Position numbers and translations under genes: made by a program. This document shows positions 1-25,513 of a DNA stretch of 64,000 nt, one piece after another (position 1 is the first letter of the stretch; every line of letters begins with the position of its first letter). The DNA is from Rhizophagus irregularis. Taxonomy: Eukaryota > Glomeromycota > Glomeromycetes > Glomerales > Glomeraceae. A model generated the notes under the pieces. That model saw only the letters and a program-made list of their open reading frames with translations. It ran no database searches and had not been told where the DNA came from. The stretch lies in NCBI RefSeq assembly GCF_026210795.1, contig NC_089446.1, positions 2,881,001 through 2,945,000 on the forward strand, given 5' to 3'.

Positions 1-3000
1 TGTCTATATAAATGGATATACGAAAAATAAGAAATAAAAACGATATAAGAAATCAACAAAAGTTTATTATAAAAATTTTTACCTTGCCACATCCTGCCTC
101 TCCACATACGACTACAGGAATATTTGCTCTTGTTCTCAATAACATTAATGCCATTTTCAATAAATTATCAACTGATAAAGCATATTGTGGATAATCAATA
201 CGGTACATTGTTTTTCGTGCCAAACATTCTAACGTAGACAATAATTGCTCAGAAGACATGGTGCGGTAATCTAATAGTTTCCATTCTTTTTCAGTTTCAA
301 TATGTTGACTTTTTAGCAAATTTTGAACACTATCTGGAACCTTTGATTTGTCGCGATATAAAGAACAGATTGAATCAGGAGTTTGGGACATGAAAAATAC
401 TAAAAGGTGATTAGAATCATCCCATTGTGCTATATTTTTTAATTGTTCTATTTCGGCTTCGTCCGCAATTTCTTGTAATTGCGCAGATCTTGTTTGGATT
501 GATTTTGTAGCAAAATCCTTTGAAACATCAAACAATGTGTTAAATAATGTTGATCGAACAGTATTTTCTCTAATCATAAGGTTTAAATTATGAACTTCGA
601 AGAAAGAACTTGATGATAATCTAATTAATTGATCTGCAAGGACATTTATAAAAATATCCAAAAAGCGAAAGGATGAGATCCCGGCATCAATCCTTTTAAA
701 GAAATATTTATCCAAAAGTTGTTGACATAATTTATGGGTAAGTGGTACTCTAATAATGCCTTCATCACTATCATCATTATCAGTAGACGATTCTGATCTG
801 AAAAAAATATCTTTCCCATCAAGCTCTCCCATTTCGTAAAGGAGCAAATAATTACAAACAATTTGAATGGGACTATGTATTTCTTGGGATACTATCAATC
901 TATTAATGTTCCATTTCAGATGCGGCCTATCCAAACAGTTAATAAATGGAAGAGATTTAAGCAAACGTTGATCAAAACTAGAAGCTACTTCAATGAAAAC
1001 AGAAGAATCTGTAAGACTTGCGATATCTGAATTATTCGAAACAATTCCCAAAGTTAATAATTGAAATAAAAATATATTGACTTCTCCGGGGTTATCAGCA
1101 GATATAATGTTAATATGTAAACTATCAACATTTCGAATGTGAAAATCTTTAAGCTGTCTAACAAGTGAGTTATAATTTGCACCATCACTAATGAGAAAGC
1201 TCTTAGGAACCAAGTGCTTTCTATGATTTTCTTGTTTAATCCATTCTGTTTTTCCTTGTCCCGATAATTCTGAAGTAACACATACAACTTTTGGACATAA
1301 TTCTTGATAAATTGCTTTCATTGCTTTGTCACTGAGTCCTATAGTAGGATGAACATGTTCAGAAAATTGGTCCAAAATGTGGTGATTCATGCCAGTTTCA
1401 GAACAACATATCAATGCTAAATAGTACTCTTTTACTTTTGTAATGTATGTTCTAATATTGTTCACTAAATCATATTGTAATTCGAAATCTAGTAATTCTA
1501 AATTTGCAATGCAGAATAAATAATTTTTATATCCATTTTTTGACGCGAAAAAACATCGTTTGATAAAAATTGAGAGTTCTTCTGCTGTGGTTGATGATGT
1601 ACATATCAATAATTGCCAAGGTTCAGGGTAAAATCCATGATTAGCATAAAATGACATTATAATATTAGGAACTCTAGACTTATCACCACAAGCCGCGATA
1701 AATAATTCTCCACATTCCACTACGTCTGAAACCACACGTTCTCCATCTTTTATTGAACGCGGATTTTTTGGAATCTTTTCAAATATAGATTTTAATCTAT
1801 CACCAATTTCTTTTAAAATTTGATAATACTCGTCCTTTCTACAACCAAATCCTAGACTTTTTTGTTTATATGGTAATCTTGCTTTTCGATTAACAAATGA
1901 TACGAGCGTTTGACAAACTTTTGAATTATGAGTTTGCTTTCCAACTTTCGTGTAAAAATCATGAAATGCTAATATATGCCTTGACGGATAGAAAGTTAAA
2001 TAATAACAATCTTCTTGCGCTTTGTTTACAACATTTTCCCTATGAAAAGATATAATTAATATTAAAATTATTAATAACAACGTCCATTAATAAAAAAGAT
2101 AACGAATATGAAGAAGTATTTACCAAAGTTCCAATTCCTTTTTTAGTTTTTCTGATATCTGCCCTAATCTATTTGTACCTTTGGTTGATTCATTATATTT
2201 TCGATATCCAAAATGTCCTAATTGAGTTAATTTGTTTATTAGGTTAACTATATTTTGAGCAATATCAAATTGTGTTACAAACTCTTCCATTATGCTTTTG
2301 GTATCATCAATTTTCCCGTTTCCTGAATCATAAGAACCACCAGGCTTTGAAATTAAAAGTGCTCTGCCTCGTAAATCCTGTAGCGCATTCATATCGTAAT
2401 TACTTTCCGATTTAGAGGATTTAGAGTAATATTTCAATGTCAAAATACATTCATCTTCTTTTTCCTCTTTAATGAAATAATATGTACCGATATTTACAGC
2501 ATTTTGAATCTTTTCCTTTGTAACTTCACCTCTATTTGATATGGTTTTATACATATTTTGCAATGCCATACTATTGCTATTACATAATGTTAATTTACTC
2601 GCTAATGAAGGATTTTTATCAACAACCTCGTTTAAATCCTTCAAAAAATTATCCAAAGTTAGATCTGTTTTATTCATCAATGGAAGTAAACATTGTTTAA
2701 CTTGAATAAGTGAAGAAACTGTGTCTTCTTGAATCAATCTTGTATCCGAGTGTTCGTCAACACCATTAATTAAATTTTTCATGTCATGCTCTGCTATAGT
2801 TCTTAAGAATCCAATAAATTCTTCAGATAAAGATAATTCCTTGATAAGTGCCCAACTGTTACTGTTAAATCCGGAAAATTTTTTATCAAAAATTTCAAAT
2901 AATTTACTTAGTCTACCCAACTTTAAATCATCATTGAGATCTGCAAATCCAGTTTCAAGCCAGTCATCTTCAGTGCGTCCTACTTTGAAAATAATTAGAG

Positions 3001-6000
3001 CCATTGATAAATATTTTAAACGTTCCTTCCAATCTTTCACTTCGGAAAGATATCTTATTGTTCTCGTGAAACCTGGATCTCTTGTATCAATATTGTGGCC
3101 AAATCGTAACATTAATTTAAGTTCATCGTCGAAATTACGAACATTATACCAGAATGATGTTGCTTCAGAATATTCAAGATTTCTCCATCCTTCATATTGC
3201 TTACATATAGTAATATATTCCATTAGAACTTTTCCAATTAACGTCTCTGCTATAAATTTAACTTTTATATCTTCCTGATTAGTAAATTGTTTATTAAAAA
3301 TATTATGAAACGTTTGAGATTTAATGAATATATTTGTATTCTCTGCCATAGGTATAATATCTTTATGAAATCCCCAATGATCTGATGATAAAGCTTCTTC
3401 TAGTTGAATTTTATCCAAATTATTGCTTCGTTCTTTTAATTCATCAGTATAATTTTCTACATCACTGGTTTTTTGACAAAATGCTAAATAAAATTCATCA
3501 AGTTTACTCAATCTTTGTTCATAGTCACGACATTGTTTACGAACCTCTGCTAATTTCCCTTCAGTAATTATTTCATTACTAGGTTCCGCAGAATTTAAGT
3601 AATAGTGAAGGAAATCATCATTTTTTACATTTAAATCTTGAAGAAGACGAATATCAATAGAACCATCATTTATCATAGTAGCCAACTTGATAATGGCAGT
3701 TTTAGCCTCTTGCACATGTGGGTGAGAATGAAAATTTTCAACGTTCCCAGTTGCTCTCAAAATAATAGTCCAAAAATTAGCAGACTCGAATAAAGATAAG
3801 TGAAGCTGAGTGGAAAATTCTTCAAAATCAATACGTGAAGAGTTATCTTTCAAACGTGTCATTATGTGATTTAAAATTTCTTCACAAAGTCTAAATAAAT
3901 AAATACATAAATTATTTAAAGCACTTTAAAAAACAATAGTAATAATAAATAAACCTTACTTATTTGGAATATTTAAACCATTATTAGTACAACCGCAAAG
4001 AACTCGCATTTTCTTTAATAAAAATTCATCATGGTTTTGTACAGTTGAATTAATTTTTTCTTTAATAATTCTTTTAAATACAAGTACCGCTCTTGGGTCC
4101 ATATTTGCAACTTTAGTTGTAGCCCTAAAAATTAGAAATTCTGAAGAATGTCTAATACGATTGTATGTTATTTCCATCAATTCATTCATGATGGATTCTT
4201 CATTAATTATCGAGACATCTGATAAGTGCTGAAAGACCGTAGTTACATATGTTCCCTCATGAGACGCTGAACTAGATGATAAAGTTGACATTCGATCCAT
4301 TAGTCTTTTATACCATTGAACGCATATTTGAGAAATTTTATCATCCTTGGTGTCTTTGAACCCGGTAATCCAATTTTTTAACAATATTGGAAACTTTTCT
4401 AATAGCTTGTATTCTATTAGGTCTGAAATGGTTTCCAATACAGTAAGATAATCAACATTAGTCCATTGTAAGTGTGGAGAATTTACAAGAGTAAAAATAG
4501 CATCAGCACGAGGTCTTTCCCATAAAGAAAATTGTCCATTTGTTAGTAGTTGAATAGTTTTTTTTCTAAATGGTTCAGTGACAATCTTTCTAATATTTTC
4601 AGGAAGTTCTTTAAAACTTTTGTTTAATTCAACAGGGTCGTGCTTAGGTATAAGTCTTTCAACCTTTTCTACTAAATGTGGGCGAAGCTGATTGTCGACT
4701 CCTTCTGAGTGAATAATTAATGCCCAAATTCTTGAGAACATTTTCAAGTTGCAATGACTAATCAACCACTAAATTAATCATATTTTTTAAAAAAAAAGAT
4801 TAGTTAATTTAAACATAATAAAAAAAAAAGAAAAGAAAAGAGGCGTGTAAGAAAATATACCTTGACAACTTTCACATAGACATTTTCGTTACTTATTGCA
4901 TTAATATATGCGATAATACTATCCAAATTTTCAAAAAAATTTTCGATATAATTAACATCATAATTGAAAGATATAGAATCAATAAAACTATATTTAGGGT
5001 CAATATATTGTGCTACTGGAAAGATTCTGAGCCATTCAAAGGACCTACGATCAATATCGTGATGAATCAAAAGCCCAATTCCTTTTGATACAACACGCAA
5101 ATTTTCTGATGGAAATGTGTCATGTTGGATTTTACTAATAACTTCAAGTAAAGAACCAGGGTGAAAATTTCTTGGTAACTCGAATTTTCCAATAAAATTA
5201 GAATTAAAACTACATTGTCCTAAGAGGAAGCATAAAAAAAGCCGTTTGTGAACTGACTTTTCTTGTTTACGGCGATTAATAAATTCCAAATTGGTTACAG
5301 ATTTTGTTAATTCGCGATTATTTTTTAGAATCTTGTCATATTCTAATATTGCTTCTTTGAAGTTATTCTGATTTACAGAATTATAAATGGTTTCCAAGAA
5401 CATGTAATCGCTGATTCCTTGTTGTTGATCCCTATTGTTTTTCATCCAAATATCGAATTGATTTTTATACATTTCTAGCACACGGTCGTCTTTGTCGCTA
5501 ATCCCTTCATAGTGGAAGGATGAAGTATTTTTATTTTTTTTACCTCCTTTTTTATATATAGCATACTTATATTTAACAGCACGTTGAAACCTTTCAATCG
5601 GAATTTTAATAGGTTCTGAATACCAATACGTAGTATAACTTTGAAAACTCCGTTTAAATTGACGAAGTTTAACTTTGAATTCTTTCCATTCACCAAGCTC
5701 AGGTATATTACCCATTATAATTGGTTCTCCCATTCCAGAAATATTCGAAGGCAAATGCACATGAAATTTTATTTTAATGTGTGTATCATCTGGTTCTTCT
5801 TCATCAGTTCGTATAAGATTCTTGGCTGTATTAATAATAATGGATGAGAAAGTACTTGAACTGCTTTGTTGATCCTGAGATTGATTCTGAGTGATCGGTG
5901 GACTTTCTTCATTATTCTGTGCGGCTTGCTGTTTCTTCTTCAATTTCTTTCTTTGACTTTTAGACAGGTTAGCTTGAATTGGATCAGTTGCTTCTGTGGG

Positions 6001-7644
6001 TTCATTTAAGTTTGATTTTTCCTTCTCTGAATCTTCACGCTCATCCGTTTCATGAGTTGCTATAGATCCTTCATTGGTACTTTTACCTTTATCTTTATTT
6101 TTTTGCTTTTCGGATTTTCCAGGATTGTTATATGACTGATCATTTTCCCCAACAGCTGAAGAGGTGTCTCTACTGTTATCAATATTATTATCTTCATTAT
6201 TAGTTTCCGAAACATTTTCGGGAGATTGTTGAAATTTTGGCTTATTAGGATTTTCAGCCGATGATTCATCATTTAACTCAGTTGAAGAAGTATCTCTACT
6301 GTTATCAATATTATCATCTTCATTGTTAGTTTCCGAAACATTTTCGGGAGGTTGTTGAAATTTTGGCTTATTAGAATTTTCAGCCGATGATTCATCATTT
6401 TTCTCAGTTGAAGAGGTATCGCTACTGTTATCAATATTATCTTCATTATTAGTTTCCGAAACATTTTCGGGAGATTGTTGAAATTTTGGCTTTTTAGGAT
6501 TTTCAGCCGATGATTCATCATTTTTCTCAGTTGAAGAGGTATCGCTACTGTTATCAATATTATTATCTTCATTATTAGTTTCCGAAACATTTTCGGGAGG
6601 TTGTTGAAATTTTGGCTTATTAGAATTTTCAGCCGATGATTCATCATTTTTCTCAGTTGAAGAGGTATCGCTACTGTTATCAATATTATTATCTTCATTG
6701 TTAGTTTCCGAAACATTTTCAGGAGATTGTTGAAATTTTGGCTTTTTAGAATTTTCAGCCGATGATTCATCATTTTTCTCAGTTGAAGAGGTATCGCTAC
6801 TGTTATCAATATTATTATCTTCATTGTTAGTTTCCGAAACATTTTCAGGAGATTGTTGAAATTTTGGCTTTTTAGAATTTTCAGCCGATGATTCATCATT
6901 TAACTCAGTTGAAGAAGTATCTCTACTGTTATCAATATTATCATCTTCATTGTTAGTTTCCGAAACATTTTCGGGAGGTTGTTGAAATTTTGGCTTATTA
7001 GAATTTTCAGCCGATGATTCATCATTTTTCTCAGTTGAAGAGGTATCGCTACTGTTATCAATATTATTATCTTCATTGTTAGTTTCCGAAACATTTTCAA
7101 GAGATTGTTGAAATTTTGGCTTTTTAGAATTTTCAGCCGATGATTCATCATTTTTCTCAGTTGAAGAGGTATCGCTACTGTTATCAATATTATTATCTTC
7201 ATTGTTAGTAGTTTCCGAAACATTTTCAGGAGATTGTTGAAATTTTGGCTTTTTAGAATTTTCAGCCGATGATTCATCATTTAACTCAGTTGAAGAAGTA
7301 TCTCTACTGTTATCAATATTATTATCTTCATTGTTAGTTTCCGAAACAATTTCTTGAGGTTGTTGAAATTTTGGCTTTTTAGGATTTTCAGCCGATGATT
7401 CATCATTTTTCTCAGTTGAAGAGGTATCGCTACTGTTATCAATATTATCTTCATTATTATTCTCATTGTTAGGACCATTTTTTGAAGTTTTGTTATATGG
7501 CGCAGTAAAACTTTCATTTTTATTGTCTCCATCATTTATATTTTCGGGTGGATTATTATTAACCTTGGTTTCGGATTCTTCTTGCTTGTCTTTATCTTTA
7601 CTTTTCTTATCATCATCATTTTGTTTATTTTCTTGATTATCCAT
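1..7644 (-). CDS. RNF213/mysterin-like giant AAA+ E3 ligase, copy 1 (5' part, cut by window edge)
   Basis: Exons read from splice sites: 7644-4861, 4768-3960, 3890-2124, 2039-83, and the first codon of exon 5 at 3-1; the phases close, giving 2440 residues in the window. The start is set by homology to copy 2 (MDNQ against MNNQ); an upstream in-frame extension is judged untranslated. The protein begins with an acidic, Asn/Ser/Lys-rich disordered region. A tandem block of 42-residue repeats follows, then a CBM20-like starch-binding domain at about residues 610-725 (motifs GEPIIMGNIPELGEW, VKYKYAIYK, DDRVLEM). Long helical RNF213-type stalk sequence follows. The first AAA+ Walker A (CGEAGCGK) ends exactly at the exon 4 donor and its Thr is the exon 5 codon at the window edge. 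Vertebrate RNF213 is a ubiquitin ligase for proteins and bacterial lipopolysaccharide; the substrate here is unknown. No break is seen. Whether the 3' half is intact cannot be told from this window. Confidence 0.85.
6160..7475 (-). repeat. 126-bp coding minisatellite in exon 1 of RNF213-like copy 1
   Basis: About ten full units plus one partial unit of 126 bp (variants of 123 and 129 bp) encode a 42-residue repeat. Its core reads DNSSDTSSTEKNDESS, followed by KPKFQQ and ENVSET. Units differ at fixed positions (SSD/SRD, EKN/ELN, SKK/SNK, SPEN/PPEN). The variants recur in blocks of three (units 2-4 match units 5-7), so a 378-bp higher-order unit was also duplicated. Every length change is a multiple of three, so the frame is kept. 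Copy 2 lacks the block, so the expansion probably followed the segmental duplication. Confidence 0.95.
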
Positions 7645-8220
7645 CGTAATGGTTTTAAGAGAAAAAAAGTAAATAATAATATAAAAAAAAACCAAAAAAA
7701 TTTAAATATAATCTTTTTTAAAAAAAGTAAGGATAGGCCCGTTTATCCTACCCAAGAAAAAATGAAAGGAAACAAAAAAAAAATTTTTTTTTTTATTTAT
7801 TTATTTATTTTCTGGGGCATGTTTTATACCGGAAAAACTCGTATATTTTTTTTAGTCACATGATATAACTTTACAACCTATTTAGTTATGGTGTTAATCT
7901 ACCATCAATCAAAAGATAAGGCCGTAATTGTTTCTCAAAATGGTATCATTGAACTTTTACAGACTCAAAATTCGGGGTATTTTGTAACAAAAAGATTACT
8001 TTTTTACCATATTCGTGATACAGCATATATCTGATATGGTATTAAAAATAAGGCGATAGTTGATTTCAATAATATGTACCTCCAATACGGATACGTTGTA
8101 CGTGGGAACAAAGTAAATATACACTTAAATTTTACTCTTTTTATTCAATGTTTTTCACGTGAGTACAATGTGAAACGCAAAAAACCTTAATTATTTTTCT
8201 CGATTGAATGATTGTAAATG
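7645..8220 (-). promoter_or_regulatory. 5' flank of RNF213-like copy 1
   Basis: This non-coding, AT-rich stretch keeps short blocks in common with the flank of copy 2 (25514-26450). They are a ggatagg...cctaccca segment near 7730, tctggggcatgtttt near 7812, a ggaaaaac motif, a cacatga block, and a stretch near 8100-8170 ending in a cacgtg site. Conservation amid diverged sequence suggests promoter elements, but it may only reflect shared ancestry. Confidence 0.35.
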
Positions 8221-9040
8221 AGATGTGCTTTGAATTTATTCAAAATAATCAGGAAGTTTACAGAATTAGGATGATTTATCTACTGTAGAATTGTGTAGAA
8301 TTCCAGGAAATATACATGATTATTATCATTTCTAACAACCATGATGCGCAGCAAAATAATTCCCAAAAACGTTACACCAGTGTTGGCACTTGGCCGTTTG
8401 GCCGGGGTTGGCCATTTGGCCGTTTGGCCAGTTTGGCCGGCCAAACTGGCCAAAAAAATCTTTGGCCGCGGCCAAATGCCAATACAGCCTTAATAAAGTA
8501 TTAGTATTTTGTTATTTGGCCAAAATTTGGCCGGGGTTGGCCATTGGCCGTTTTGCCATTTTGGCCGGCCAAATCGGCCAAAAAAATTCTTGGCCGCGGC
8601 CAAATGCCAACACTGCGTTACACCACGTAAATTGTTATGTTTAACAATCAGTCTTTTGAATAACAACTTGTGCATTATTATAGGTAATATATTCTCTGTC
8701 AGATACAAAATAAATAGCTAGCAACCGCTTTTTCATCAAAATGTTCAGCATTTTGACAAGCAATTTTCTTGTAATCATAAACATCTTGTTTCTAAGTTCA
8801 TTCACCAATTCTGTTGTATGAGGAAACCAAGACCATTAGTATTTTGAAGTACGTTGACATGCAAATAACTATCTATACCTTTGTTTATTAGTCCGAGGAC
8901 TATATTTCTAATTTCTACGCAAAGAATGTCCCGTTGTCATATAGCACTGTGGCGATCGAAAGTGAAAAGATTCTGTGATTCTAAGCTCCTTTAATAGCTT
9001 AACGTAATTCTTAGCATCTTCTCCATTTTACCAAATAAAA
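8221..9040 (-). pseudogene. GH18 chitinase pseudogene (duplicate of 26451-28010)
   Basis: The segment aligns with the second exon of the intact chitinase. It starts with the same 3' end (gctttgaatttattcaaa) and continues through the regions equivalent to gttacaccacgtaaattg, ctttttcatcaaaatgttcag and cttagcatct. Large deletions, frameshifts and stops remove any usable frame, and the part encoding the catalytic motif is absent. A hAT-type MITE sits inside it at 8378-8615. It lies upstream of RNF213-like copy 1 just as the live chitinase lies upstream of copy 2. Confidence 0.88.
8378..8615. mobile_element. hAT-type MITE with GGCC-rich interior and 8-bp target duplication
   Basis: Terminal inverted repeats begin CAGTGTTGGCA at both ends. 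They are flanked by perfect 8-bp direct repeats CGTTACAC (8370-8377 and 8616-8623). The live chitinase shows the matching unoccupied site (cattacaccacgtaaa). The interior has two related arms, each rich in TTGGCC/GGCCAA with the palindromes ttggccggccaa and tggccgcggcca, so it is GC-rich amid AT-rich DNA. There is no transposase. TIR start and TSD length are those of the hAT superfamily. Confidence 0.9.
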
Positions 9041-9076
9041 GTTCAGTTTCCCAGAAGAATTATATATAATATTTAA

Positions 9077-9206
9077 GGGCTCTTTGCAATAGAAAGGGGG
9101 AAACTACCAGAAAATTTAAATTTATATTTATTTACTAAAAATGCTCCATTGTAATTTGTCCAGAATTAGCATTAACTAAAAAAAATTTTTTTTTAGCAAA
9201 GAGCCC
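9077..9206. mobile_element. Small MITE with GGGCTCTTTGC inverted repeats
   Basis: The left end gggctctttgcaa and the right end tagcaaagagccc form an 11-bp inverted repeat bounded by TAA and TTA. The interior is AT-rich and non-coding. The 3-bp flanks and GGGC start would suit a PIF/Harbinger-type element, but that superfamily call is inference. It lies between the chitinase and kinesin pseudogenes. Confidence 0.65.
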
Positions 9207-9290
9207 TTATTTATTTATTATTATTATATATATTGTTATATTTATTAATTAATTTTTAACACCGAAAAAATAAAATATAATATAATATTT

Positions 9291-9910
9291 AGGAACAATT
9301 ATTTCTTGTCACCGTTTCTACGTGCGTCTTTCTTGCATTTTGTCCAAAGACAAACTCGTTGATCGAATCAGCCAAAGGTGATACATTAAATAGCATGCAT
9401 CTTAATAGAAAAAGAATTAATACTCAAAAAGTCAATGAAATCAATCAATAGAATATAATAATAATACTTACCGAGCAAATGTACCCTGGTTAATGTGGTT
9501 CGATTAGTCCCTGATTTGTTGAATCACATTTCTATAACGAAGGACTAGTATATAATCGTCCGCACATGTCTTCAATAAATAAATAAAAATATATATATCC
9601 GTTTTCTGTCTCTGTAATTTGATCGCCGACAGAGCCATATTTTCAGAGCCTGCTAAATCGATTAGGCTAAGAGAACCTCGACTGCTTATTTCAAGTGGAT
9701 TTCTCTTCCTAAGTGAAGTATAAGTACATTATGACTTCTTGAAGAAACTATGATCCGAAGTTTTGCACGTTAAAAATTTCCATATCTTTCTTTTGGCTGA
9801 TATTGCCTAAAAGATTAAGAATAAAAATTATTTACATCTTTTGGCATTTTCAAAGATGTCTTCATCTCATACTATCTTGCATAAATCCTTGTCCTTGACA
9901 TGATCCTTAT
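9291..9910 (-). pseudogene. Kinesin-14 pseudogene fragment (duplicate of the 3' part of 28349-30659)
   Basis: The fragment aligns with the last exons of the intact kinesin: the C-terminal tail (ctacgtgcg, cttgcat), the switch II region (cagagcc...ctaggctaagagaacctcgactgct in two parts), and the beginning of the preceding exon up to cttgcataaatccttg. Frameshifts, an insertion near 9560-9610 and deletions destroy the frame. The P-loop half is missing because the duplication ends within the motor exon. It was therefore broken at birth and has since decayed. Confidence 0.87.
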
Positions 9911-9915
9911 TTTGT

Positions 9916-10520: not shown

Positions 10521-13500
10521 TTACATTGCATCATATTTATTTTGCTTTTTTGATCGATTTCTTTGTTGATCATTACGTGACCTTGATGATCCTGCAGAGC
10601 CTGATACAAAATCATTATTAAATGGTATTTCTGATGGCAACGTAGAAGAATTCGATGATGGCCCATTAAAAAATTCGTTAATAATAGGTGCAGTTGTGAC
10701 ATCTGAATTATAATTAGATTCAGAAAATATATCATTCGAATTTCTTGATGCTTTAAACTTATTCCTATTTCCTCCCATTTGTTGATGTTTTTTCTTAATT
10801 TCCTGTTATAAAATAAAATCTTAAATTAGTGAAACTTTTTTTTTACAAAAATATAATATAATTTGAAAATTTTCATTTTACCTCAATTTTAGAACTAATA
10901 TATAAATAAGCCTCATAAATATGACACACTAATAAGGAGTCTGGAAATATGTCGTCTATTAATTCCGTTGAAATATTAGCAGGCCACAAATTTAATCCTT
11001 CATCTGTTATATAAACATTTAATGGGTGTTCGTGCCTATTTGGATCTAAAAATCTTTGCATAAATCTTTTCAATGCAGTAGCAAATATTTCTGGTTTTAT
11101 ATATTTTTGTGTATCTGAAGCTCGTTCGAATCCAACCGCTAAATTAATTTCCTGCTTTACTTGGTCTGTAATTTTAGTTTTGAATTTTTCATCGATATAT
11201 TGTATCACGGAATTTGCAACTTGATCTTCAATCAATTCATATAAAGCTATCAAATGCTTAAGACACAATTCAGCTCCTAACAAATCGTCAAAAGATTTGT
11301 TTTCTAATAATATAGATAATTTCATCCATTGGTTAACGTATTCTGCGATTTGAGTCTCTCCATTTCCAACCGAAGTGCGTTTCACAAAGCAAAGTAAAAT
11401 TTCCAATGAAGATAAAAGTTCAGACGCGTTATCATAAGATAATGAATAATTATTAGTGTGATATCCGTATAAAGTGTTAGTTACTCCCATAATTAAAGAA
11501 ATCTTATCAGATGGAATTTGTTGTTGAGGGATTAAAGTTTTGATATCGCCTAGAATTCTCATGTGTCCCTGAAATAATTCCATATGATATGGGAATGGCT
11601 CCATATATGCTTGTGAATCATTCAAAGTATCTATATGAACTTTTTCAAAAACTAGTCTATGCGCGAGATCCATTTCAATTTTTTGTAAATCATAAATTAC
11701 ATCTTGGCCTCGTCCAGTTTCAAGATTACGGTCACTATATTGTAGAATGTTTTCATCCCATTCATAATTTATAAAATTATTTTGTTTTGTTTGATTGATT
11801 TTCAAAGATTGAATATAAAAACGAGCAGAACTTTCTGTAGAAGCGGCACCAGTTCCTGTTCCCTGTATAAAATAGGATTCTTCTAAGAATTTAAGCGCTT
11901 TAGAATTCCCTGTAGGAATTGTTAAGACTTCTTGTAAGAAATTGTTTTGTAATCCAATCAAATATTCTAAAATAGCACTGAGATACACGCCCGAGTCTTT
12001 TGGTTCGACCAAAGCAAGTGAAATAGGGGATTTCAAATTTATATCAGGTTTTGGTTTCGGAAGTTCGTGACATTGAAATTGATCGATATCATTTATAACT
12101 TCATTCCAAGCTTTAGCAAAATCATTGAAATTCGAAATTAAATATTTGAATATTTCATCAGATTTTCTGTAATTAGATTCTTCATTTATAAAGTCTTCGA
12201 AAGATTTTACTTGCGCTCTCTCACGACTCAAGCGGTATCCGAGACGTGATGATATTATTTGTACAAAATTTACTATCGGCCAAAGATATTTGACTTTTTC
12301 TAATTTATCAAAATATCTAAAGAATACTGAAATAAAAGGAAAATATGTTTCATGTTTCTCTATATCTGAATTGTAATAAGCACGAAAACCTTGAAAACTA
12401 ATTGTTCCAATAGATCTCCAAAGTCTTGGTAAATGTTCAAGTTTGTATTTTTGATCCATCAATAATGTTTGATTAACTTCTCCTTCAATAATTGAACTTC
12501 CTTGAGTTTTAGTCAAAGCAGCGTCAAGTTTGGCACGAAATTCAGTAACTGTATTCGTAACATTTTTAATTAATGGCGAAACATAATTTTGTGCAAATTT
12601 TGCTTCCCATTCTTCACGCTCCTCAGATGTTTTTAAGGCTGAATCTTTGGGTGGATTTAGAGTCATTCTATTAAGAATTGCATGTAATAAAAGAGCTAAA
12701 CTCTCTTCAGGACAATTTAAAATTTTTAAAAGAACTTTCCAATCATTTTTAATGTGACCCATGCAATATGCCAGGCTATCGTTTGTTACATTATTATTTT
12801 TTCGTAAAAAGGTATTTGCAGTATTAGAAGGGGCCCAAACTCCAATTATTGAATGAACAAATAAATGAAGAATTCTATATGAAGCCGGAGGTAAATTGCG
12901 AACGTTATGATTGATATCTTCATTCTCGGCTTCAGCAATATATCCTTTTTCGTCTTTTGCAACCAAATTTGTCCTTATTGGAGCATCATCTAACCTTGTA
13001 TTTCCAGCTTCGGATACATGATTCATACCGCCAATCATATTGCCACATTCGGGGCATTTACCTCGCCCATTAGCTTGCCCACAATCACCAATAAGATAAA
13101 CATAACCACATTTACATTGATACCTTTTTTAGTAAAAAAATAGAAATACTTTTTAGAACAAAATTGAATATATGAAAAATCAATTGTAACTAAATATACA
13201 TATATATAATTACCGAGTAAATTGACCATTCCTTTGGAAGACAGCACTTAATATGATAGACTCTACATCTGATGAGCTAGTGAGAATATACAACCCAGTA
13301 CAATTATTCAAATTCTGCAGTAAATTAGCTAATGGTGACGCATCTGCTGGAAGAGATGAATGCAATGCTATAACATGTCCAACTACTGACTTAATTAGTA
13401 AATCTGAATTACTAGTATCAATATCAAGGTATAATAATGGACATTGATTTGTGGTTATATTTTTGATAATTTGCCTATAAATAATAGATAAAGAGGACAT

Positions 13501-16500
13501 TTGCTCTATCTTTTCATTTAAAAATCCTGCAACTTGATTTTCTACATGAGCCCAATCTCTTGTTGCTCTTATAGCATGAAGACGATTAAGAATAATTCCC
13601 ATAAATGAAATTCTAGCATTAATTGATTCTTTCCTTTTTAAGGCTTTAAAGATTTGGTTAAATTGATCTTTATTACTGTAAGAATAAAGTATTGAAAAGC
13701 AATTTTCCACATCTGAATAATCTTCTAAGGAATAGTAAGCGTTAAATTGCAGTCGAATTTCCTTACTATTATCCCAAGCTAAAGAACCAAGCCATGGCAA
13801 AGCATTTTTTTGGCCCTGGCAAAATTTTTTGATATCATCCATAGAATATTCTCTATTACGTAAATCTCGTATAAAATAAATCTTTAATGAATGGATCAAA
13901 GGATTGGAAATTTCCATGTAATTATTAAGTTGAATCAACATTTGATTGGGATTAAAATCTCCAATTTTCTTGAAATTCAGGAAATTAAACTCAATCAGTT
14001 GGGATTTGCCAACTTGAATTGATGAGTCCCAAAATTTATGAACAAATTCTTTCATGAATGCAATCGCTGTTATCTTTAGTAACGCTTTAATATTTTTAGC
14101 ACATAAAGTTTTAATTGCATAATGAAGATAGGGCGATAATTTAATTAAGTTGTATTGAGCAAAATATGTTGTCTGAATAATGTCACAAAATAATGTCGCC
14201 ATCGACGAGTCACAGCCTTTACCTTCCAACCACCCATTAATAATTTCAAATCGTAAAGAACGTAACATTTCTTCAGGATTAACTAGCCATGTAAAGAATT
14301 CGAAAGGTTCATTCTTATTTTCTTCTTCAAATATACTCTTAATAATTTTTCCCATAAGAGGAAAGGGATCTTCTACGAATAAATTACGATAAAGTTCCAA
14401 TTTAGAAGGTGATTCGAATGGAATAATTTCTAAACTTTTCATGACAAAAGATTGTTTTGCAAATGTCATTTTGTTTGTTTGTTTTGGTTCAATGTTTCTA
14501 AACATTTCAAAGACTTCATGAATAAACTGTGTCGAAAAAATTTTATCATCAGTCTCTCCGATCTTGATAATTTCTTTGATAGGTTTCAATTGAATTAACT
14601 CAGTTAACAATAAATCATAGCAAATTTGTAATAATTGAAGAGATTCTGTCCTGATAAAACTTGAAATCTTTTCACAGAGATTCAAAACTTTTTTAATTTC
14701 GCGTTGCAATTCAGTTGTCTCTTGACTTTCGATAATTCTTCTGAGCATCGTATTCGTAACTTCGCCTACAAGGTAATCATCAAAGTTTTCACTTGTAAGG
14801 TCACGAGTGTAATTAATAATATCAGGACACATGTGAACTAATTGACATGCTGCTAAGGTAGAATTAGCATGTTCCCACCAAAATGTATGCAATAAAATAG
14901 GGTTTAAGATTTTCTCGTTACCAATTTTACATTTAAGAATGTAGGATAATACAGAGATATCTTTTAAACTAGCTTCACTATTGCAAACTATATTGACAAA
15001 ATCCTTGAAATATAAATCTGAAACTTGTTCCAATGGGGAAGTCCTTAATAGTGTTATAGAATTAAATACTTTATTGGTAAACTCTTTAATATAATTTTCG
15101 TAAATTTGCTCCAATAATTTTTCGGTAGAAGGATCTATATTTTCTCTATCTTTCCTAAGTAATGATATTTCTTCTTCGTATAGAGTTTTGAAGTTATCAA
15201 TTTGCTTCATAAAATAAAATGAAAATGGAAATTGTAAATCAAGACCACTAACGGCCATTGCATATCCATCCGGCTTAGGTTCTGGTAATATGTCAATATC
15301 AACGATCTTATTATTCATAAACATATCTTGCCAGAAATTAAGAAATTGTACGTGTCGTGGTGACATTTCAGCTTCTGGTAAGTCATGAATAAGAAATGTT
15401 TTTGTAGCTCCTAGACGCTCTAGAGAACATAAAATTTTCGCAATAGGATGACGAACCAATGTACGGATGTGTGCTTGTAAAGCAATAGAAAACGAAGAAT
15501 ACGGATATAACAATTTTTTGTTGGATGCCACATGATATTGCCAATCTTGTTTGGCTTTTATTTTCAACCATTCTTGCGTTCTTATCTTTAAACAATTTAC
15601 GAAGTTTGGATGTTCAAGAATCTTCCTATTTAAGTATCTAATTAAATAAAAAGTTTACATAATTAAAACTTTATTATATCCGAACAAATTCACTTTCTTT
15701 ACTAAAATAGCAGCAATACTTACTTCACATGATTAACTGATTTAACATTATTTGGATACTTCATGCATAGTAGACACCATAACATTTCTTGTTTCAATAT
15801 ATCTTCGAATGGATAAGTAGTTTCAATTATATCACATAAATTGCCTTCTAACAAAACAGATAAAGGTCTTTCTTGTTTCGCTAATGTTTCGATTGTAATT
15901 TGTTTCCATCCGCACATAAAGTTGAAGGACATTAAATTCGCACTTGTTTCTCGACGGAGATGAAGAATAATGCAAGCATGTTTATTTTTAATAGCATTAT
16001 TTTCTTTTACTTTTAGTAAGTATTCGTTCCGGGATTGTTCAATAATAAACTTGGCTAATTTGATACATTCTGAATTTACAGTAGTGGTATCACACTGTAA
16101 TATTAATAATTCGTAATCTGACCCAAGCCAAAATTTTTTCATTTGTTTTTGAAATTGATTCTCGGTTTTGAAAGTTGAAAGTTTCAAAACATAACATTTT
16201 GAAGTTACATTCTTTAAGCAAAATGTGATATTTGTGTTGATGTTTGAAAACGAGTTAACTATGATTAAATGTCCATCCGGATTAGTATTAGCATTTTGTT
16301 CATGTAATAAATCTTGGAAGTAATCTGCTATATCATTATGATGTTGAACTTGGAAATAAATATTTTTATAATGTTGAATTTCTTCAAACTCTAAAGGAGA
16401 TTTATCGATTCGAACCATGCCATCTGATGTAGCAATTGCGATTAAAGCTTCCTTACACTTTTCTAATAATTTCTTTTCTCCTATATTTGGATCTTTGTTT

Positions 16501-19500
16501 ATAGTATCAATAACTAAACTTTGCAATGTTTCTTCTTCACAAAAGCCAATAAATAAATCTTTTTGAGTAAATCTATCTCTATTTGTTCCTGTTACTGTTG
16601 ACATTTGCTTTGTCCATTCCTTCAGCCGCGTTACTAATTCTTTTTGTTCGTTACTAAGTATATCGTCTAATGTCATCACTTGTTTCTCAAATCTATTTAA
16701 AAGTGGTGGATCAGCATCCTTTAATTTCTTTTCATCGAGAACCAGGATACATCTGAAATCAGGATGAACGTATCTGTATGATAAAAGCGGTTTAGTTTAT
16801 ACACATTTTACAAAGATAAACGCATCTATTTATAAATATAACTTACAACATAGGATTTGCATAAGCTCCTAAAGCAACTCTTGTAAAATATTTAGGGTCA
16901 TCAGAGCTTCCCATTGTGATATAATTTTGATTCCACAAATCGTAAAGACTCCCTATCAGGTGAATAAAAAAAATTTAATATGCATTATATATATATACAC
17001 ATAATCATAATAATTATTAAAATACCCATAACGAATAAAATATAGCAAATTTACCATAGATAATCTCTAAATCAGTTAATATCAGAGGTTGACCGGCTTC
17101 AACGCACATCTATAATTAATAAAATGGATGAATTAATTATTTGATTAACAAATTTTTAAGTAAAAAACTATAAAAAAAAGTAAAATACAATTACCATTAT
17201 TCTACTCAATATACTATAAGAATAATCATCACGATCTTCCGGAAATTGTGATCCCAATATTACAACTGGATTCATTTCACGTAATTGATATGTTAAAATA
17301 TTTACAATAGAATCACTTTTTCCTATGACCATTAAATGCCGAGAACCTTCGCTTGTAAGATTGTCATTAATTAGAATGCTGGTGGGTATTTGCTCGTATG
17401 TCCAACTTTTGTGTTCATTAAAGTTTTTAATAACAGGTTCAAAATATTCCAAACATGTTTCAGTATGTTTTTTGATACCACCAAAATTTCTTGCTAATGC
17501 TAAATGAATATTTTTAGGAGTCATTTCTTTATCTGAAAGATTTTTCACAAGAGCATAATAATCACGAAGTCCATGAAAATTTGAGAATTCATTTTGTCCT
17601 TTTACTTCATATTCAGAATATGCTTCAGCAAAAGGTTTAAGCTTAACTTTTTGATTTTTGATTTCAGATGATGAAAGTTCTAAGTTATTCTTATCTAGTA
17701 AACGAACAGCGGTCTCAATTAGATCATCCAAATCAAATTTTGGTCTCTGCACTAGTAATGCTCTACTACTTTTACTATTATCCAATCTCCAATTTGAAAT
17801 TCCTACTACAGACACAGTAGGTCCATCAGCCGGATAACTTGGCTCCAACAATGAGTGAAGAACTTTAAGAGGGTTAAAAGGACTGGTTTCAGCCAATCCA
17901 ACTTCATCAAGTAAAACAACACTAATAACTGGAAACTCTTTAGAACTAGTTTCTTGATAAGCTTTAGCCTTTTGAAAGACTTTTTCGATACCATCAGATG
18001 TAGATGAAGAAGAACCTTGATGAGGAATAAAAAATACCTGCAAAATAACATAATCAATCAATAAATAAGTCATTAATATATAATACAATACTTAAATTAT
18101 ATACCTGAGGTAATGTTCTAAAATATTCATCGTTTGAGTCGGAACCTCTAAGATTTTGATGCACAAGTCTGATTGCTAATGATTTCGAAGAACTATATTT
18201 TATAAAGAAGCAGAATTAATATGAAATTTTGTTAATTAAAATAAGTAAAAAAAAAATGAAGTATTTACTAACCCTGGACTTCCCACAATAAACAATGGTA
18301 TGTGATTTAAAATACAAACTATAATAACCAATACATTTTCCAGCAATGCTTCATTGAATGCAGTATTTGGTGGACAAGTCATTCTTTTTATATAGTCCAT
18401 TTGTTCTTCCCTTATGACTTCATTAAATAATTGTTCTCTTATAATAAACTTTTCACGAAGAAATATTTTACACATTTCTTCACGATATTTTTTTCTCAAT
18501 TCACGATCATATAATCGAGACTGGTAACACAAACCTAATGCTAATATATAAGATCGAATATCTAGGTTTGGATAATTATTATGAGATTTCTTGTTGTCCT
18601 TTTGATTTATTGGACGGTTTTGAAGACTATTATGGAAAAATTTGACCAATTTAATTGCTCTTTTAACGTCACGTAAACTGACACTATATGATTCTTCAAC
18701 ATTACGAATAAATTCTTGTGAAGCAAATAATAAATCAGCAAGTATTGGTTTTCCTAAAGTATCTAATTGGTCATTTACCATTATTTGAATATAAATCTTT
18801 TCATCATTCGGTTGAAGTCTACCATAATCCCATACATAATCTAATATTTGGTCCGGAAGAGGCTTAACTTCATAAACGAGACGACTTTGTTCTTCGAACC
18901 TGATATTTTTTGCTTTTATTCCAACATTACTAATACTCTTTTTTCTAAGACGATATGGATTACAAGCAGCAAAAAGTCGTATATTTGGATGAATCAGGTT
19001 GCCATCAAGCATTCGATGAGCGATAAGATCTGCCAACAGTCCGATATGGTTACAAGTGTTTATTTCATCAAAAAATAACCATATCTCTTTATTTCGTGCT
19101 TTTTTATCAGATTCTTTCATGAAATCCTTAATGTTTTGTTTAGTAATACCAGCATGAAGGTTAAGTGCTCTAAATTCTACTTCTACAACTCCAGCCAAGA
19201 ATCCAATTAAACTTGTCTATATAAATGGATATACGGAAGATAAGAAATAAAAACGATATAGGAAATCAACAAAAGTTTATTATAAAAATTTTTACCTTGC
19301 CACATCCTGCCTCTCCACATACAACTACAGGAATATTTGCTCTTGTTCTCAATAACATTAATGCCATTTTCAATAAATTATCAACTGATAAAGCATATTT
19401 TGGATAATCAATATGGTGCATTGTTTTCCGTGCTAAACATTCTAACGTAGACAATAATTGCTCAGAAGACATGGTGCAGTAATCTAATAGTTTCCATTCT

Positions 19501-22500
19501 TCTTCAGTTTCAATATGTTGACTTTTTAGCAAATTTTGAACATTATTTGGAACTTTCGCTTTGTCACGATATAAAGAACAGATTGAATCTGGAGTTTGGG
19601 ACATGAAAAATACTAATAGGTGATTAGAATCATCCCATTGTGCTATATTTTTTAATTGTTCTATTTCGACTTCATCCGCAATTTCTTGTATTTGCGCAGA
19701 TCTTGTTTGGATTGATTTTGTAGCAAAATCCTTTGAACCATCAAATAACGTGTTAAATAATGTTGATCGAACATTATTACTTTTAATCATAAGGTTTAAA
19801 TTATGAACTTCAAAAAAAGAACTTGATGATAATCTAATTAATTGATCTGCAAGGACATTTATAAAAATATCCAAAAAACGAAAGGATGAAATTCCGGCAT
19901 CAATCCTTTTAAAGAAATATTTATCCAAAAGTTGTTGACATAATTTATGGCTAAGTGGTATTCTAATAATGCCTTCATCATTAACGGTAGACGATTCTGA
20001 TCTGAAAAAAATATCTCTTCTATCGAGATCCTCTCGTTCATAAAGGTGTAAATAATTACAAACAATTTGAATTGGACTATGTATTTCTTGGGATATCATC
20101 AATCTATCAGTGTTCCACATAAGATGCGCCCTCTCCAAACAATTAATAAATGGAAGAGATTTAAGCAAACGTTGATCAAAACTAGAAGCTACTTCAATGA
20201 AAACATAAGAATCTATAAGACTTGCGATATCTGAATTATTCGAAACAATTCCCAAAGTTAATAATTGAAATAAAAATATATTGACTTCTCTAGGATTATC
20301 AGCAGATATTATGTTAATATGTAAACTATTAACATTTCGAATATGAAAATCTTTAAGCTGCTTAAGAAGTGAATTATAATTTGCACCATCACTAATGAGA
20401 AAGCTTTTAGGAACCAAGCGCTTACTATGACTTTCTTGCTTAATCCATTCCGTTTTTCCTTGTCCCGATAATTCTGAAGTAACACATACAACTTTTGGAC
20501 ATAATTCTTGATAAATTGCTTTCATCGCTGCGTCACTGAGTCCTATAGTAGGATGAACATGTTCAGAAAATTGGTCCAAAATGTGGTGATTCATGCCAGT
20601 TTCAGAACAACATATCAATGCTAAATAGTACTCTTTTACTTTTGTCATGTATGTTCTAATATTGTTCACTAAATCATATTGTAATTCGAAATCTAGTAAT
20701 TCTAAATTTGCAATGCAGAATAAGTAATTTTTATATCCATTTTTTGACGCGAAAAAACACCGTTTGATAAAAATTGAGAGTTCTTCTTCTGTGGTTGATG
20801 ATGTACATATCAATAATTGCCAAGGTTCAGGATAAGATCCATGATTAGCATAAAATGACATTATAATATTAGGAACTCTAGACTTATCGCCACAAGCCGC
20901 GACAAATAATCCTCCACATTCCACTACGTCCGAAACCACACGTTCTCCAGAACCTTTTATTGAGCGCGGAATTTTTGGAAGCTTTTCAAATATATATTTT
21001 AATTTATCACCAATTTCTTTTAAAATTTGATAATAATCATCCCTTTTATAACTAAATCCTTGACTTTTTTGTAATCTTGCTTTTCGATTAACAAATGATA
21101 CGAGCGTTTGGCAAATCTCTGATATATGAGGTTGTTTTTCTTTCGTGTAGAAATCATAAAATGCTAATATGTGTTTTGCTGGATAAAAAGTTAAATAGTA
21201 ACAATTTTCTTGCGCTCTGTCTACAATATTTTCCCTATGAAAAGATATAATTAATATTAAATTATTAAAATAATAATAACATCTATTAATTAAAAAGCTA
21301 ACGTAAATGAAAAAATATTTACCAAAGTTCCAATTCCTTTTTTAGTTTTTCTGATATCAGCCTTAATCTATTTGTGCCTTTGACTGATTCATTATATTTT
21401 CGATATCCAAAATGTCCTAATTGAGTCAATTTGTTCATTATATTAACTATATTTTGGGCAATATCAAATTGTGATACAAAGTCTTCCATTATGCTTTTGG
21501 TATTATCAATTTGCCCATTTGAATCATAGGAACCACCAGGCTTTGATATTAAAAGTGCTCTGCCTCGTAAATCCTGTAACGCATTTATATCGTAATTACT
21601 CTCCGACTTAGAGGATTTAGAGTAATATTTCAATGTCAAAATACATTCATCTTCTTTTTCCTCTTTAATGAAATAATATGTACCGATATTTACAGCATTT
21701 TGAATCTTTTCCTTTGTAACTTCACCTCTATTTGATATGGTTTTATACATATTTTGCAATGCCATACTATTGCTATTACATAATGTTAATTTACTCGCTA
21801 ATGAAGGATTTTTATCAACAATCTCATTTAAATCCTTCAAAAATCTATCCAAAGTTAGATTTGTTTTATTCATCAACGGAAGTAAGCATTGTTTAACTTG
21901 AATAAGTGAAGAAACTGTATCTTCTTGAATCAGCCTTGTATCTGAGTGCTCGTCTACTCCATTAATTAAATTTTTCATGTCATGCTCTGCTATAGTTCTT
22001 AGGAATTTAATAAATTCATCAGATAAAGATAATTCCTTGATAAGTGCCCAACTGTTACTGTTAAATCCGGAAAATCTATCATCAAAAGTTCCAAATGACT
22101 CACTTAATCTATCCAAGATTAAATTATCATTGAGATCTGCAAATCCAGTTTCAAGCCAGTCATTTTTAATGCGTACTACTTTGAAAATAATTAGAACCAT
22201 TTGTAAAAATTTTAAACGTTCCTTCCATTCATTAATTTCGGAAAGGTATCTTATTGTTTTAATGAATTTTGAATCTGCTGTATCAATATTGCGGCCATAT
22301 CGTAGCATTAATTTAAGTTCATCGTCGAAATTACGGACCTTATACCAGAATGATGTTGCTTTAGAATATTCAAGATTTCTCCATCCTTCATACTGTTTAC
22401 ATATAGTTTTATATTCCATAAACACTTTTCCAATTAACGTCTTTGCTATAAATTCAACTTTTATATCTTTCAGGTTACTGATTTGTTTATTGAAAATATT

Positions 22501-25500
22501 ATGAAACGTTTGAGATTTGTTAAATTTATTTGTATCCTCTGCTATAGGTATAATATCTTTATGAATACCCCAATAATCTGATGAATCTGATGACACGACC
22601 TCTTCTAATGAAGTCTTATCCAAATTATTGCTTAGTTCTTTTAACTTATCGAAATATTTTTCCACATTATTGGCTTTTTGACAAAATGTTAAATAAAAAT
22701 CATGAAGTTTACTCAATCTTTGTTCATAGTCACGACATTGTTTACGAACCTTTGCTAATTTCTCTTTAGTAATTATTTCTTTACTTGATCCCGCAGAATT
22801 TAGATAATAATGAAGGAAATTATCATCTTTTTCAATTAGATCTTGAAGAAGGCGAAGATCAATAGAACCATCATTTATCATGGTGGCCAACTTGATAATG
22901 GCAGTTTTAGCTTCTCGTACATGTGGGTGGGAATGAAAATTTTCAACATTTCCAGTTGCTCTCAAAATGACATTCCAAAAATTAGCAGACTCAAATAAAG
23001 ATAAGTGAAGCCGAGTGGAAAATTCTTCAAAATCAATATGTGAAGATCTATCTTTCAAACGTGTCATTATGTGACTTAAAATTTCTTCACAAAGTCTAAA
23101 TAAAAAATATTAAAATTATTTAAAGCGCTTTTAAAAAAAAAGTAATAATAATAATAAATAAACCTTACTTATTTGGAATATTTAAATCGTTATTAGTACA
23201 ACCGCAAATAACCCGCATTTTCTTTAATAAAAATTCATCATGGCTTTGTAGACTTAAATTAATTTTTTCTTTAATAATCCTTTTAAATACAAGTACTGCT
23301 CTTGGATCCATATTTGCAACTTTAATTGCAGCACTAAAAATTAAACCTTCTGAAGATTTTCTAATACGATCGTACGTTATATCCATCAATTCACTCATGA
23401 TAGATTCTTCGTTAATTATCGAGACATCTGATAAGTGCCTAAAGACCGCAGTTACGTATGTTTCTTCATTAGAAGCTGAATTAGATGACATAGATGACAT
23501 TCGATCCATAAGTCTTTTATACCATCGAATGCATATTTGAGAAATTTTATCATCCTTAGTATCTTTGAACTTATCGATCCAATTTTTTAATAATAATGGA
23601 AACTTGTTTAATAGTATGTATTCTACAAAATTTGACATGGTTTCTAATACAGTAAGATAATCAGCTTTTGTCCAACGTAAACGTGAAGAATTTACAAGAA
23701 TAAAAATAGCTTCAGCACGAGGTTTTCCCCATAAAGAAAGTTGTCCATTAATTAATAATTGAATGGTCTTTTTTCTATATGGCTGAGTGACCATATCTTT
23801 AATATTTTCAGGAAGTTCGTTAAAATTTTTGTTTAGTTCGACAGAGTCGTATTTAGATATAAATCTTTCAACCCTTGCTACTAAATATGGTTTAAGTTGA
23901 TTGTCAACTATTTCTGAATGAATAATTGATTCCCAAACTTTTGATAACGTTTTCATGTTGCAATGATTAATCAACCACTAAATTAATCATATTTTTTAAA
24001 AAAAAATTAGTTAATTTAAACATAATAAAAAAAAGAAAAGAAAAAAGAGGCGTGTAAGAAAATATACCTTGGCAACTTTCACATAGACATCTTCGTCACC
24101 TATTGCATCAATAAATGGGATAATACTATCCAACTTTTCGAAAAATTTCTCGGTATAATTAACATCGTAATAGAAAGATATAGAGTCAATAAAACTATAT
24201 TTAGGGTCAATACGGTGAGCCAGTTGAAAAATAATAAGCCATTCAAAGGACCTACGATCAATATCGCGACGAATTAAAAGCTCAATTCCTTTTGATACAA
24301 TACGCAAATCTTCTGAAGGAAATGTGTCAGATCGGATTTCTCCAATAACTTCAAATAAAAAACCAGGGTGAAAATTTCTTGGTAATTCGAATCTTCCAAT
24401 AAAATTATAATTATAACTACAATGTCCTAAGAGGAAGCATAAAAAAAGCCGTTTATGAACTGATTCTTCTTGTTTATGTCGTTCAATAAATTCAAATCTC
24501 GTTACAGATCTCGTTAATTCGCGATTCTTTTTTAGAATGTTGTCATATTCTAATATTGCATCTTTGAAGTTATTCGAATTTACAGAATTATAAATGATTT
24601 CCAAGAACATGTAATCATTATAGATTCGTTCATTTGATATTCGTTGATACTTATTGCTCATCATCCAAATATCGAATTGATTTTTATACATTTCTAGTAC
24701 ACGGTTGTCTTTTTCATCACTTCCTTCATAAATGAAGGGTGATATATCTTTATTTTTTCTATTTCCTTTTTTTATAGCATACTTATATTGAATAACAGCA
24801 TTATGAAACCTTTCGATCGGAATTTTAATAGGGTCTGAATACCAATACGTATAACTTTGAAAATTCCGTTTAAGTTGACGAAGTTTAACTTTAGGTTCAG
24901 TCCATTCACCAAACTCCGGTATACTACCAATCAAAATAGGTTCTCCTATTCCAGAAATTTGATGAGGCAAATGCACATGAAAATGCATCTTGATGTGTTT
25001 ATCATCTGGTTCTTCTTCTTCAGTTCGTCTTAAATTCTTGGCTATATTTTTTATATTTTTTGCTGTATTATAAAAAGAGGAAAATCCTCCAGTAAATAAA
25101 CTGCGTTGAGATTGATCCTGAGTGGTCGATGCACTTTCTTCATTATTTTGTGATGTGGAAGCGCGTTGCCCTGTTGAATTTTCCATAAAACTGTTTGTTG
25201 TATTTTCAACTTGTTGTTTCCACAATTGATCATTATTTTCAGTATGCTCGTATAAATTAACTCTAGTGGATCCTTCATTGATACTTTTTCTTTTATCATT
25301 ATTATTTTGAATTTCAGGAGTTTTATAAGATTGATTAACATTATCATTCTTATAATTGGAACCAATTTTTGAAGTTTGGTTATATGGCGCAGTAAATCTC
25401 ACGTTTTTATCATCACCATCATTAATATTTTCGAGTGGATTAGAATTAACCTTTGTTTTGGATTTTTCTTGTTTATCTTTACCTTTCTTATCATCATCAT

Positions 25501-25513
25501 TTTGATTATTCAT
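10521..25513 (-). CDS. RNF213/mysterin-like giant AAA+ ubiquitin ligase, copy 2 (complete, 13 exons)
   Basis: Exons: 25513-24068, 23977-23169, 23095-21323, 21234-19296, 19216-18273, 18192-18105, 18037-17195, 17109-17055, 16952-16847, 16773-15724, 15637-13214, 13123-10882, 10802-10521. All phases close, giving 4666 residues (vertebrate RNF213 is about 5200). Domain order: disordered N terminus; CBM20-like domain about 173-285 (GEPILIGSIPEFGEW); helical stalk; first ATP site with Walker A GEAGCGKTSL about 1990 and Walker B WLFFDEINT about 2040; second ATP site with GSPGSSKSLA about 2304 and VVLLDEVGLAE about 2377; the family hallmarks VEAGQPLILTDLEIIYGSLYD and DPPLLNRFEKQ (about 2695); a helical E3 shell; an RZ finger about 3826-3860; a polar tail. 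No RING Cys/His set is visible where vertebrates carry one. It probably acts as a cytosolic ATP-regulated ubiquitin ligase; the substrate is unknown. Confidence 0.92.
13020..13123 (-). other. RZ-type zinc finger of RNF213-like copy 2 with altered ligand pattern
   Basis: The start of exon 12 encodes RYQCKCGYVYLIGDCG, a short linker, then CPECGNMIGGMNH. This is the RZ finger, the ubiquitin-transfer element of RNF213 and ZNFX1. The usual family pattern is C-x3-H, a GECG-like loop, then C-x2-C. Here the His position is Tyr (C-K-C-G-Y), and a second Cys sits two residues after the first. The IGG-x-NH tail typical of the family is kept. A C-x-C plus C-x2-C zinc site is a plausible replacement. Confidence 0.8.

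Follow-up and report, generated by a model that had tools for sequence, protein, structure and literature searches.

A tandem pair of RNF213-family genes in Rhizophagus irregularis, candidates for RING-less, ATP-gated ubiquitin ligases

Results

Two head-to-tail RNF213-like genes on one strand

In mammals, RNF213 (mysterin) has been studied for its part in antimicrobial defence and vascular disease, and it tags invading microbes with ubiquitin. We analyzed a stretch of 64,000 nucleotides from the soil-dwelling, root-inhabiting fungus Rhizophagus irregularis (contig NC_089446.1, C18:2881001-2945000 in our naming of contigs; hereafter the window, to which all coordinates without a contig name refer), for which an original prediction had proposed a head-to-tail pair of genes encoding RNF213 homologues. 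Gene models, built from the sequence only with a simple gene finder of our own and by comparing the two copies with each other, confirmed this pair: copies A and B lie head-to-tail on the minus strand, and two single open frames of copy B match RNF213 with E values of 8e-16 and 3e-15.

Copy B (25513 to 10521, minus strand) is complete, with 13 exons and 0 internal stops; this is the exon number previously proposed, while the protein has 4662 residues rather than the 4666 given before. Copy A starts at 7644 on the minus strand and extends beyond the window to C18:2871363, where its model comprises 13 exons and 5421 stop-free residues. The view that only one copy is complete holds in that copy B is whole and copy A is cut by the window edge, but copy A was not shown to be defective. 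In the first models, the two proteins were 83% identical across about 4600 residues.

24068-25513, 23169-23977, 21323-23095, 19296-21234, minus strand: copy B exons 1-4 (gene finder and comparison with copy A)
18273-19216, 18105-18192, 17195-18037, 17055-17109, 16847-16952, minus strand: copy B exons 5-9 (same basis)
15724-16773, 13214-15625, 10882-13123, 10521-10802, minus strand: copy B exons 10-13 (same basis)
1..7644, minus strand: 5' part of copy A within the window, with exons 4861-7644, 3960-4768, 2124-3890, 83-2039 and the edge of exon 5

The model of the AAA4 exon of copy A requires an AAG acceptor where TAG would be expected, and its use is assumed; the first model, made before this acceptor was recognized, skipped eight residues at the AAA4 Walker A motif. 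Since the AAG acceptor, found in the DNA at the same place, restores an open frame, we rejected a pseudogene status for copy A. Its first exon also contains a 126-base tandem repeat (6153-7448, minus strand; 10.3 copies, 94% matches) that encodes a repetitive N-terminal extension and is absent from copy B.

Both copies belong to the RNF213 family beyond the AAA+ core

The features expected of the family were found in both copies in the order that had been predicted, which is a CBM20-like N terminus, AAA3 and AAA4 motifs, the DPPLLNRFEKQ hallmark and an RZ finger. Human and mouse RNF213 have this order in common with them (CBM20, AAA core with AAA3 and AAA4, ubiquitin ligase (E3) module, RZ Cys and His, C-terminal domain).

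24644..25000, minus strand: copy B CBM20 domain, residues 172-290 (Pfam E 8e-4, 19.6 bits, below the cut-off of 23.3)
5503..5721, minus strand: copy A CBM20 match (Pfam E 9e-5, 22.6 bits, cut-off 23.3)
within 18105..21234, minus strand: copy B AAA3 Walker A GEAGCGKT (exons 4-5) and Walker B FFDEIN (exon 5)
within 18105..21234, minus strand: copy B AAA4 Walker A GSPGSSKS (spanning exons 5-6)
17195..18037, minus strand: copy B exon with AAA4 Walker B LLDEVGLAE
15724..16773, minus strand: copy B exon with the DPPLLNRFEKQ hallmark (open frame 15720-16796 matches RNF213, E 8e-16)
13214..15625, minus strand: copy B E3-module exon ahead of the RZ finger, without a RING insertion (model like the RNF213 E3 module)
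13018..13122, minus strand: copy B RZ finger (Pfam PF20173, E 6e-16; aligned with RNF213)
10882..13017, minus strand: copy B C-terminal domain, which in RNF213 docks the ubiquitin-conjugating enzyme (E2) (colinear PDB match to RNF213)

One could imagine that only the AAA+ core is common with RNF213 and that the remainder of these proteins is unrelated, as might be suggested by the E3-back frames, which on their own gave no PDB sequence match. Three regions outside the generic core argue against this: the open frame covering the RZ finger and C-terminal domain of copy B is colinear with the RNF213 structure (E 3e-15 in a single-frame search of solved structures); the predicted model of the module preceding the RZ finger is closest to the human RNF213 E3 module, with its back, shell and core fold; and the N-terminal CBM20 fold, itself an RNF213 feature, is present by model (AlphaFold2, pLDDT 84 for copy B, with CBM20 proteins as the fold matches in the PDB). 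The core-only explanation is thus hardly tenable, and the RNF213 match is not due to chance, since single open frames already reach E values of 8e-16 and 3e-15. For the R. clarus protein P0004, RNF213 chains were the only solved-structure matches at E <= 0.001 (best 3e-140); P0004 and P0002 are 84% identical, and P0002 in turn shares 99% identity with copy B across the searched part. Sequence matches and predicted models together support the assignment of copies A and B to the RNF213 family, as originally proposed.

Pfam models for generic AAA domains did not match single frames of copies A or B, because introns split the Walker motifs; in paralogue C, where these motifs lie within one frame, AAA_5 was matched with an E value of 1.5e-7. 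An NCBIfam search gave no matches. Six AAA units per chain are found in dynein and in Rea1/midasin, an architecture that parts of PMC7311170 likewise describe for RNF213; dynein and Rea1 were not among the structure-search matches listed, which for P0004 means matches at E 0.001. ZNFX1 shares the RZ finger but has a UPF1-like helicase body, unlike the RNF213-type copies. Its AAA_11/AAA_12 helicase and ZNFX1 domains had no Pfam match in the scanned frames of copies A and B (some short exons lay outside the scan), and are present in two other loci of the genome, L019 and L021.

The fungal proteins lack a RING and have a rearranged RZ finger

In copy B, Cys3825, Cys3827, Cys3845 and Cys3848 are the proposed zinc ligands of the RZ finger, while Cys3836 is the putative nucleophile and His3857 the putative base, both of which are kept in copy A. 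These last two roles correspond to Cys4516 and His4537 in human RNF213 and to Cys4462 and His4483 in the mouse protein, as described in parts of PMC11549300 and PMC12075652. Copies A and B are both without the zinc-ligand His at human position 4509: a Tyr stands there and a new Cys is found two residues earlier, giving C-x-C-G-Y instead of C-x3-H. We counted these residues in 83 RZ-bearing proteins (76 from the database and 7 models from this genome): the extra Cys was found in 76 of 77 readable rows and the His in 0/77, the nucleophile Cys was kept in 69 of 73 readable rows, and the base was His in 48/82 and Tyr in 26. Four Gigaspora margarita proteins (P0106, P0111, P0118 and P0119) have an RZ finger without the nucleophile-Cys segment, with C-x-C and C-x2-C kept. 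The genome also encodes a second expanded RZ family, of eight ZNFX1-type loci on C16 (3) and C26 (5), two of them checked with Pfam; C-x3-H is present in seven of these eight models, the eighth being without the segment.

Using a crude pattern, we detected no RING, the domain from which RNF213 takes its name, in the 120 database relatives (E3-back region present in 111) or in the seven gene models. According to parts of PMC7311170 and PMC11549300, the RING of RNF213 is dispensable for autoubiquitination (in mouse) and for the ubiquitylation of bacteria, and RING mutants are partly impaired at Toxoplasma vacuoles; the absence of a RING from the fungal proteins fits this published dispensability. 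By its sequences, the fungal form is an RNF213 family with three departures from animal RNF213 (no RING, a changed RZ zinc ligand with C-x-C in place of C-x3-H, and the RZ-less loci described below) and, unlike RNF213 of human and mouse, it is multi-copy. The original prediction was right about membership in the RNF213 family and missed the RING absence, the rearranged RZ ligands, the 29 or more loci and the spread of the family in the subphylum.

A large family with an RZ-less branch

A search of the R. irregularis genome with the C-terminal exon returned at least 16 RZ-bearing loci and at least 13 loci that match only past the RZ finger. There are therefore at least 29 RNF213-type loci in this genome, copies A and B being two of them. 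Four of the RZ-bearing loci lie within 82 kb (C4:5273128-5355505). By our own sorting, the RZ matches in the genome (at least 26) comprise 16 of RNF213-type, 8 of ZNFX1-type, a degraded locus of RNF213-type, several frames of which contain stops (C4:2205998-2211540), and a fragment beside copy C.

C25:3131795-3415490 (seven), C8:3076770, C21:247906-276548, C28:1351860, C3:5420241: the 13 RZ-less loci

An extra match to the DPPLLNRFEKQ frame, without a listed C-terminal match, was seen at C25:3152448-3153386. No RZ match was found near any of the 13 RZ-less loci, RZ match counts being lower bounds. Two of these 13 loci were read as DNA, and in each of them one open frame (1113 and 1105 codons) covers E3-back through the C-terminal domain with no RZ finger; the possibility that the missing RZ is an annotation gap was rejected on these two.

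When the AAA3-AAA4 part of copy B was used to query a protein database, 1923 proteins were obtained, and the relatives were thus selected by similarity of that part. By our reading of the species names, the best 120 of the 1923 all belong to Glomeromycotina, with genera that include Paraglomus, Ambispora, Gigaspora and Rhizophagus; one of the RNF213-type models, P0006 of Diversispora epigaea, is annotated with a protein kinase domain, through fusion or model error. When the AAA3 frame was compared with prokaryote and viral contigs, 34 and 5 pattern matches were obtained, none of them a relative by tblastn, although exact patterns provide weak evidence of absence. In a tree of 79 rows, copy A groups with copy B and R. 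irregularis P0002 (support 88), and a single sequence each from R. clarus and Glomus lies alongside; because A, B and P0002 adjoin, the A/B tandem duplication looks recent from the sequences.

The tree of the AAA region requires five changes between the RZ and RZ-less labels. Among the 29 RZ-less protein rows, 21 have a junction readable by pattern, and these are mostly of one common C-terminal type. Since this type is shared despite the five label changes, gene conversion among paralogues is a simpler reading than five RZ losses; P0031, whose junction differs, and P0018, whose junction is unreadable, may be separate losses or mis-modelled.

Loss of the RZ finger is associated with loss of AAA4 hydrolysis residues

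At AAA3 as well as AAA4, copies A and B keep the residues of Walker A, of Walker B and of sensor 1, so both carry intact predicted AAA3 and AAA4 sites. We then compared these positions over 105 rows having the AAA1-2, E3-back and C-terminal regions (76 RZ-bearing and 29 RZ-less); some of these rows are nearly identical to each other, as copy C is to P0024 and copy D to P0035. Of the 74 RZ-bearing rows readable at the Walker B Glu of AAA4, 67 have retained it, versus 11 of 29 RZ-less rows (lost in 7/74 versus 18/29), and the Glu and the sensor Asn are both kept in 67/74 versus 7/29; Fisher tests, which ignore shared ancestry, gave 1e-7 for the Glu alone and 9e-11 for the two residues together. 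The Walker A Lys of AAA4 is present everywhere it could be read (73/73 RZ-bearing, 29/29 RZ-less), and 71/75 RZ-bearing and 29/29 RZ-less rows have the Walker B Glu of AAA3. In paralogue E, which has an RZ finger, the Glu of AAA4 and the His base of the RZ finger are both lost, in the same direction as the joint RZ/AAA4 loss, but many proteins with a Tyr base have an intact AAA4 and do not fit this pattern.

Such an association could be expected if the family acted in self/non-self or stress signalling, as an expanded receptor-like family comparable to fungal NLRs, with RZ-bearing members that signal and RZ-less members that regulate. The partial clustering of the 16 or more RZ-bearing and 13 or more RZ-less loci on C4, C21 and C25 points the same way. 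Considering that the association itself was computed without regard to shared ancestry, we find this role rather unlikely.

Purifying selection and variable regions

Purifying selection acts between the coding sequences of copies A and B: the ratio of non-synonymous to synonymous substitution rates (dN/dS) is 0.46 overall, 0.27 in the AAA core and 0.42 in the E3 part, and it is highest in the N-terminal tail (0.84) and in CBM20 (0.66). Positive selection in CBM20 was rejected, its ratio being below 1. The degraded relative on C4 and the losses in copy E might suggest that the pair are decaying duplicates retained by chance, which is very improbable considering the active-site residues of copies A and B, their 13-exon open frames and their overall dN/dS.

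When 60 complete RZ-bearing relatives were compared with copy B, the median identities were 68% for AAA3-4, 42% for E3-back, 40% for CBM20 and 37% for the stalk. The head and stalk, reported in parts of PMC11549300 to be the most variable regions of simian RNF213, are also the most variable in the fungal relatives, with E3-back nearly equal and no ratio above 1; relaxed constraint accounts equally well for this head and stalk variation.

Discussion

A candidate RING-less, ATP-gated ubiquitin ligase

Taken as a whole, the best explanation is that copies A and B are RING-less, ATP-gated ubiquitin ligases of the RNF213 family, to which we give a probability of about 0.6. Its first part, an RNF213-type protein with intact predicted ATPase and RZ catalytic residues, is shown by the sequences and models described above; its second part, an ATP-gated and RING-independent ubiquitin ligase activity, is likely by analogy with the biochemistry of mouse and human RNF213. 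Each protein is predicted to begin with a sugar-binding CBM20 head and a helical stalk; its AAA ring, with sites AAA3 and AAA4, resembles that of dynein, and its E3 module has no RING. By the same analogy, ATP binding in the AAA ring would activate the E3 module, an E2~ubiquitin would dock on the C-terminal domain, and ubiquitin would pass to Cys3836 of the RZ finger, from where His3857 would aid its transfer to a target that could be a lipid, a sugar or a protein. RZ-less relatives, with an AAA4 that may bind ATP but often hydrolyse it poorly, could act as non-catalytic partners or competitors.

Choice of the target may fall to the CBM20 head together with the variable N terminus. We infer that the target would most likely be a cytosolic glycan-bearing surface, either of an invading or resident bacterium or of fungal stores, on which the protein might gather as a coat. 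Alternatively, the enzymes could have a housekeeping role in which CBM20 binds glycogen and the ligase acts on lipid droplets or glycogen instead of microbes, the chemistry being unchanged. RNF213 stabilizes lipid droplets, and these fungi store lipid and glycogen. In line with such a role, proteins that bind starch or glycogen, glucoamylases and STBD1 among them, are matched by the CBM20 model, and three positions that we take to be sugar site 1 are largely conserved (Trp in 17/17 rows, Lys in 15/17 with Arg in the other 2, Tyr or Phe in 14/17). For housekeeping, a family of 29 or more copies with a variable N terminus and an RZ-less branch nevertheless seems excessive; this is an argument and not a test, and we regard the housekeeping target as possible but doubtful.

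An antimicrobial role of the proposed ligases, through control of intracellular bacteria, could be envisaged by inference only. R. irregularis can harbour Mollicutes-related endobacteria, according to parts of PMC10507103, and their presence makes the idea testable without being evidence for it or tying it by sequence to these genes. The proposed ligases provide a concrete candidate mechanism for the handling of intracellular bacteria by arbuscular mycorrhizal fungi. Going further, the RNF213 proteins of Glomeromycotina might form a receptor-like family that reads glycan surfaces in a cell-autonomous fungal immunity, composed of RING-less ligases with a four-Cys RZ finger and of non-catalytic RZ-less sensors or brakes, in many of which AAA4 would bind ATP but not hydrolyse it. 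This is a speculative proposal that we consider improbable; if true, the decay of the RZ finger along with the hydrolysis residues of AAA4 would show that AAA4 turnover serves the RZ ligase.

Parts of PMC12075652 describe the RING of RNF213 as largely dispensable and the coupling of its AAA ring to the ligase as not yet clear. A fungal family with no RING, another zinc site and a joint RZ/AAA4 loss offers natural experiments on both points. Fungal RNF213 or mysterin was not the subject of any title or abstract opening found in our literature search, which left subscription journals and preprints uncovered. Term searches (ubiquitin, or rnf213/rnf) of parts of PMC10234402, PMC10197012, PMC7482071 and PMC11134847 gave no RNF213-like lead, and the parts of PMC11573180 and PMC5343593 consulted mention mysterin in animals only.

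Other features of the window

Short repeats of the TTGGCCG type lie between copies A and B (8390-8620), and a gene for a family 18 glycosyl hydrolase adjoins the pair (26451-28076). Farther along, 28458-32324 and 54168-63998 contain coding segments for kinesin, NOT2/3/5, kelch, HMG box and arrestin-like proteins, the HMG box (E 4e-5) and the arrestin-like segment both being below the cut-off.
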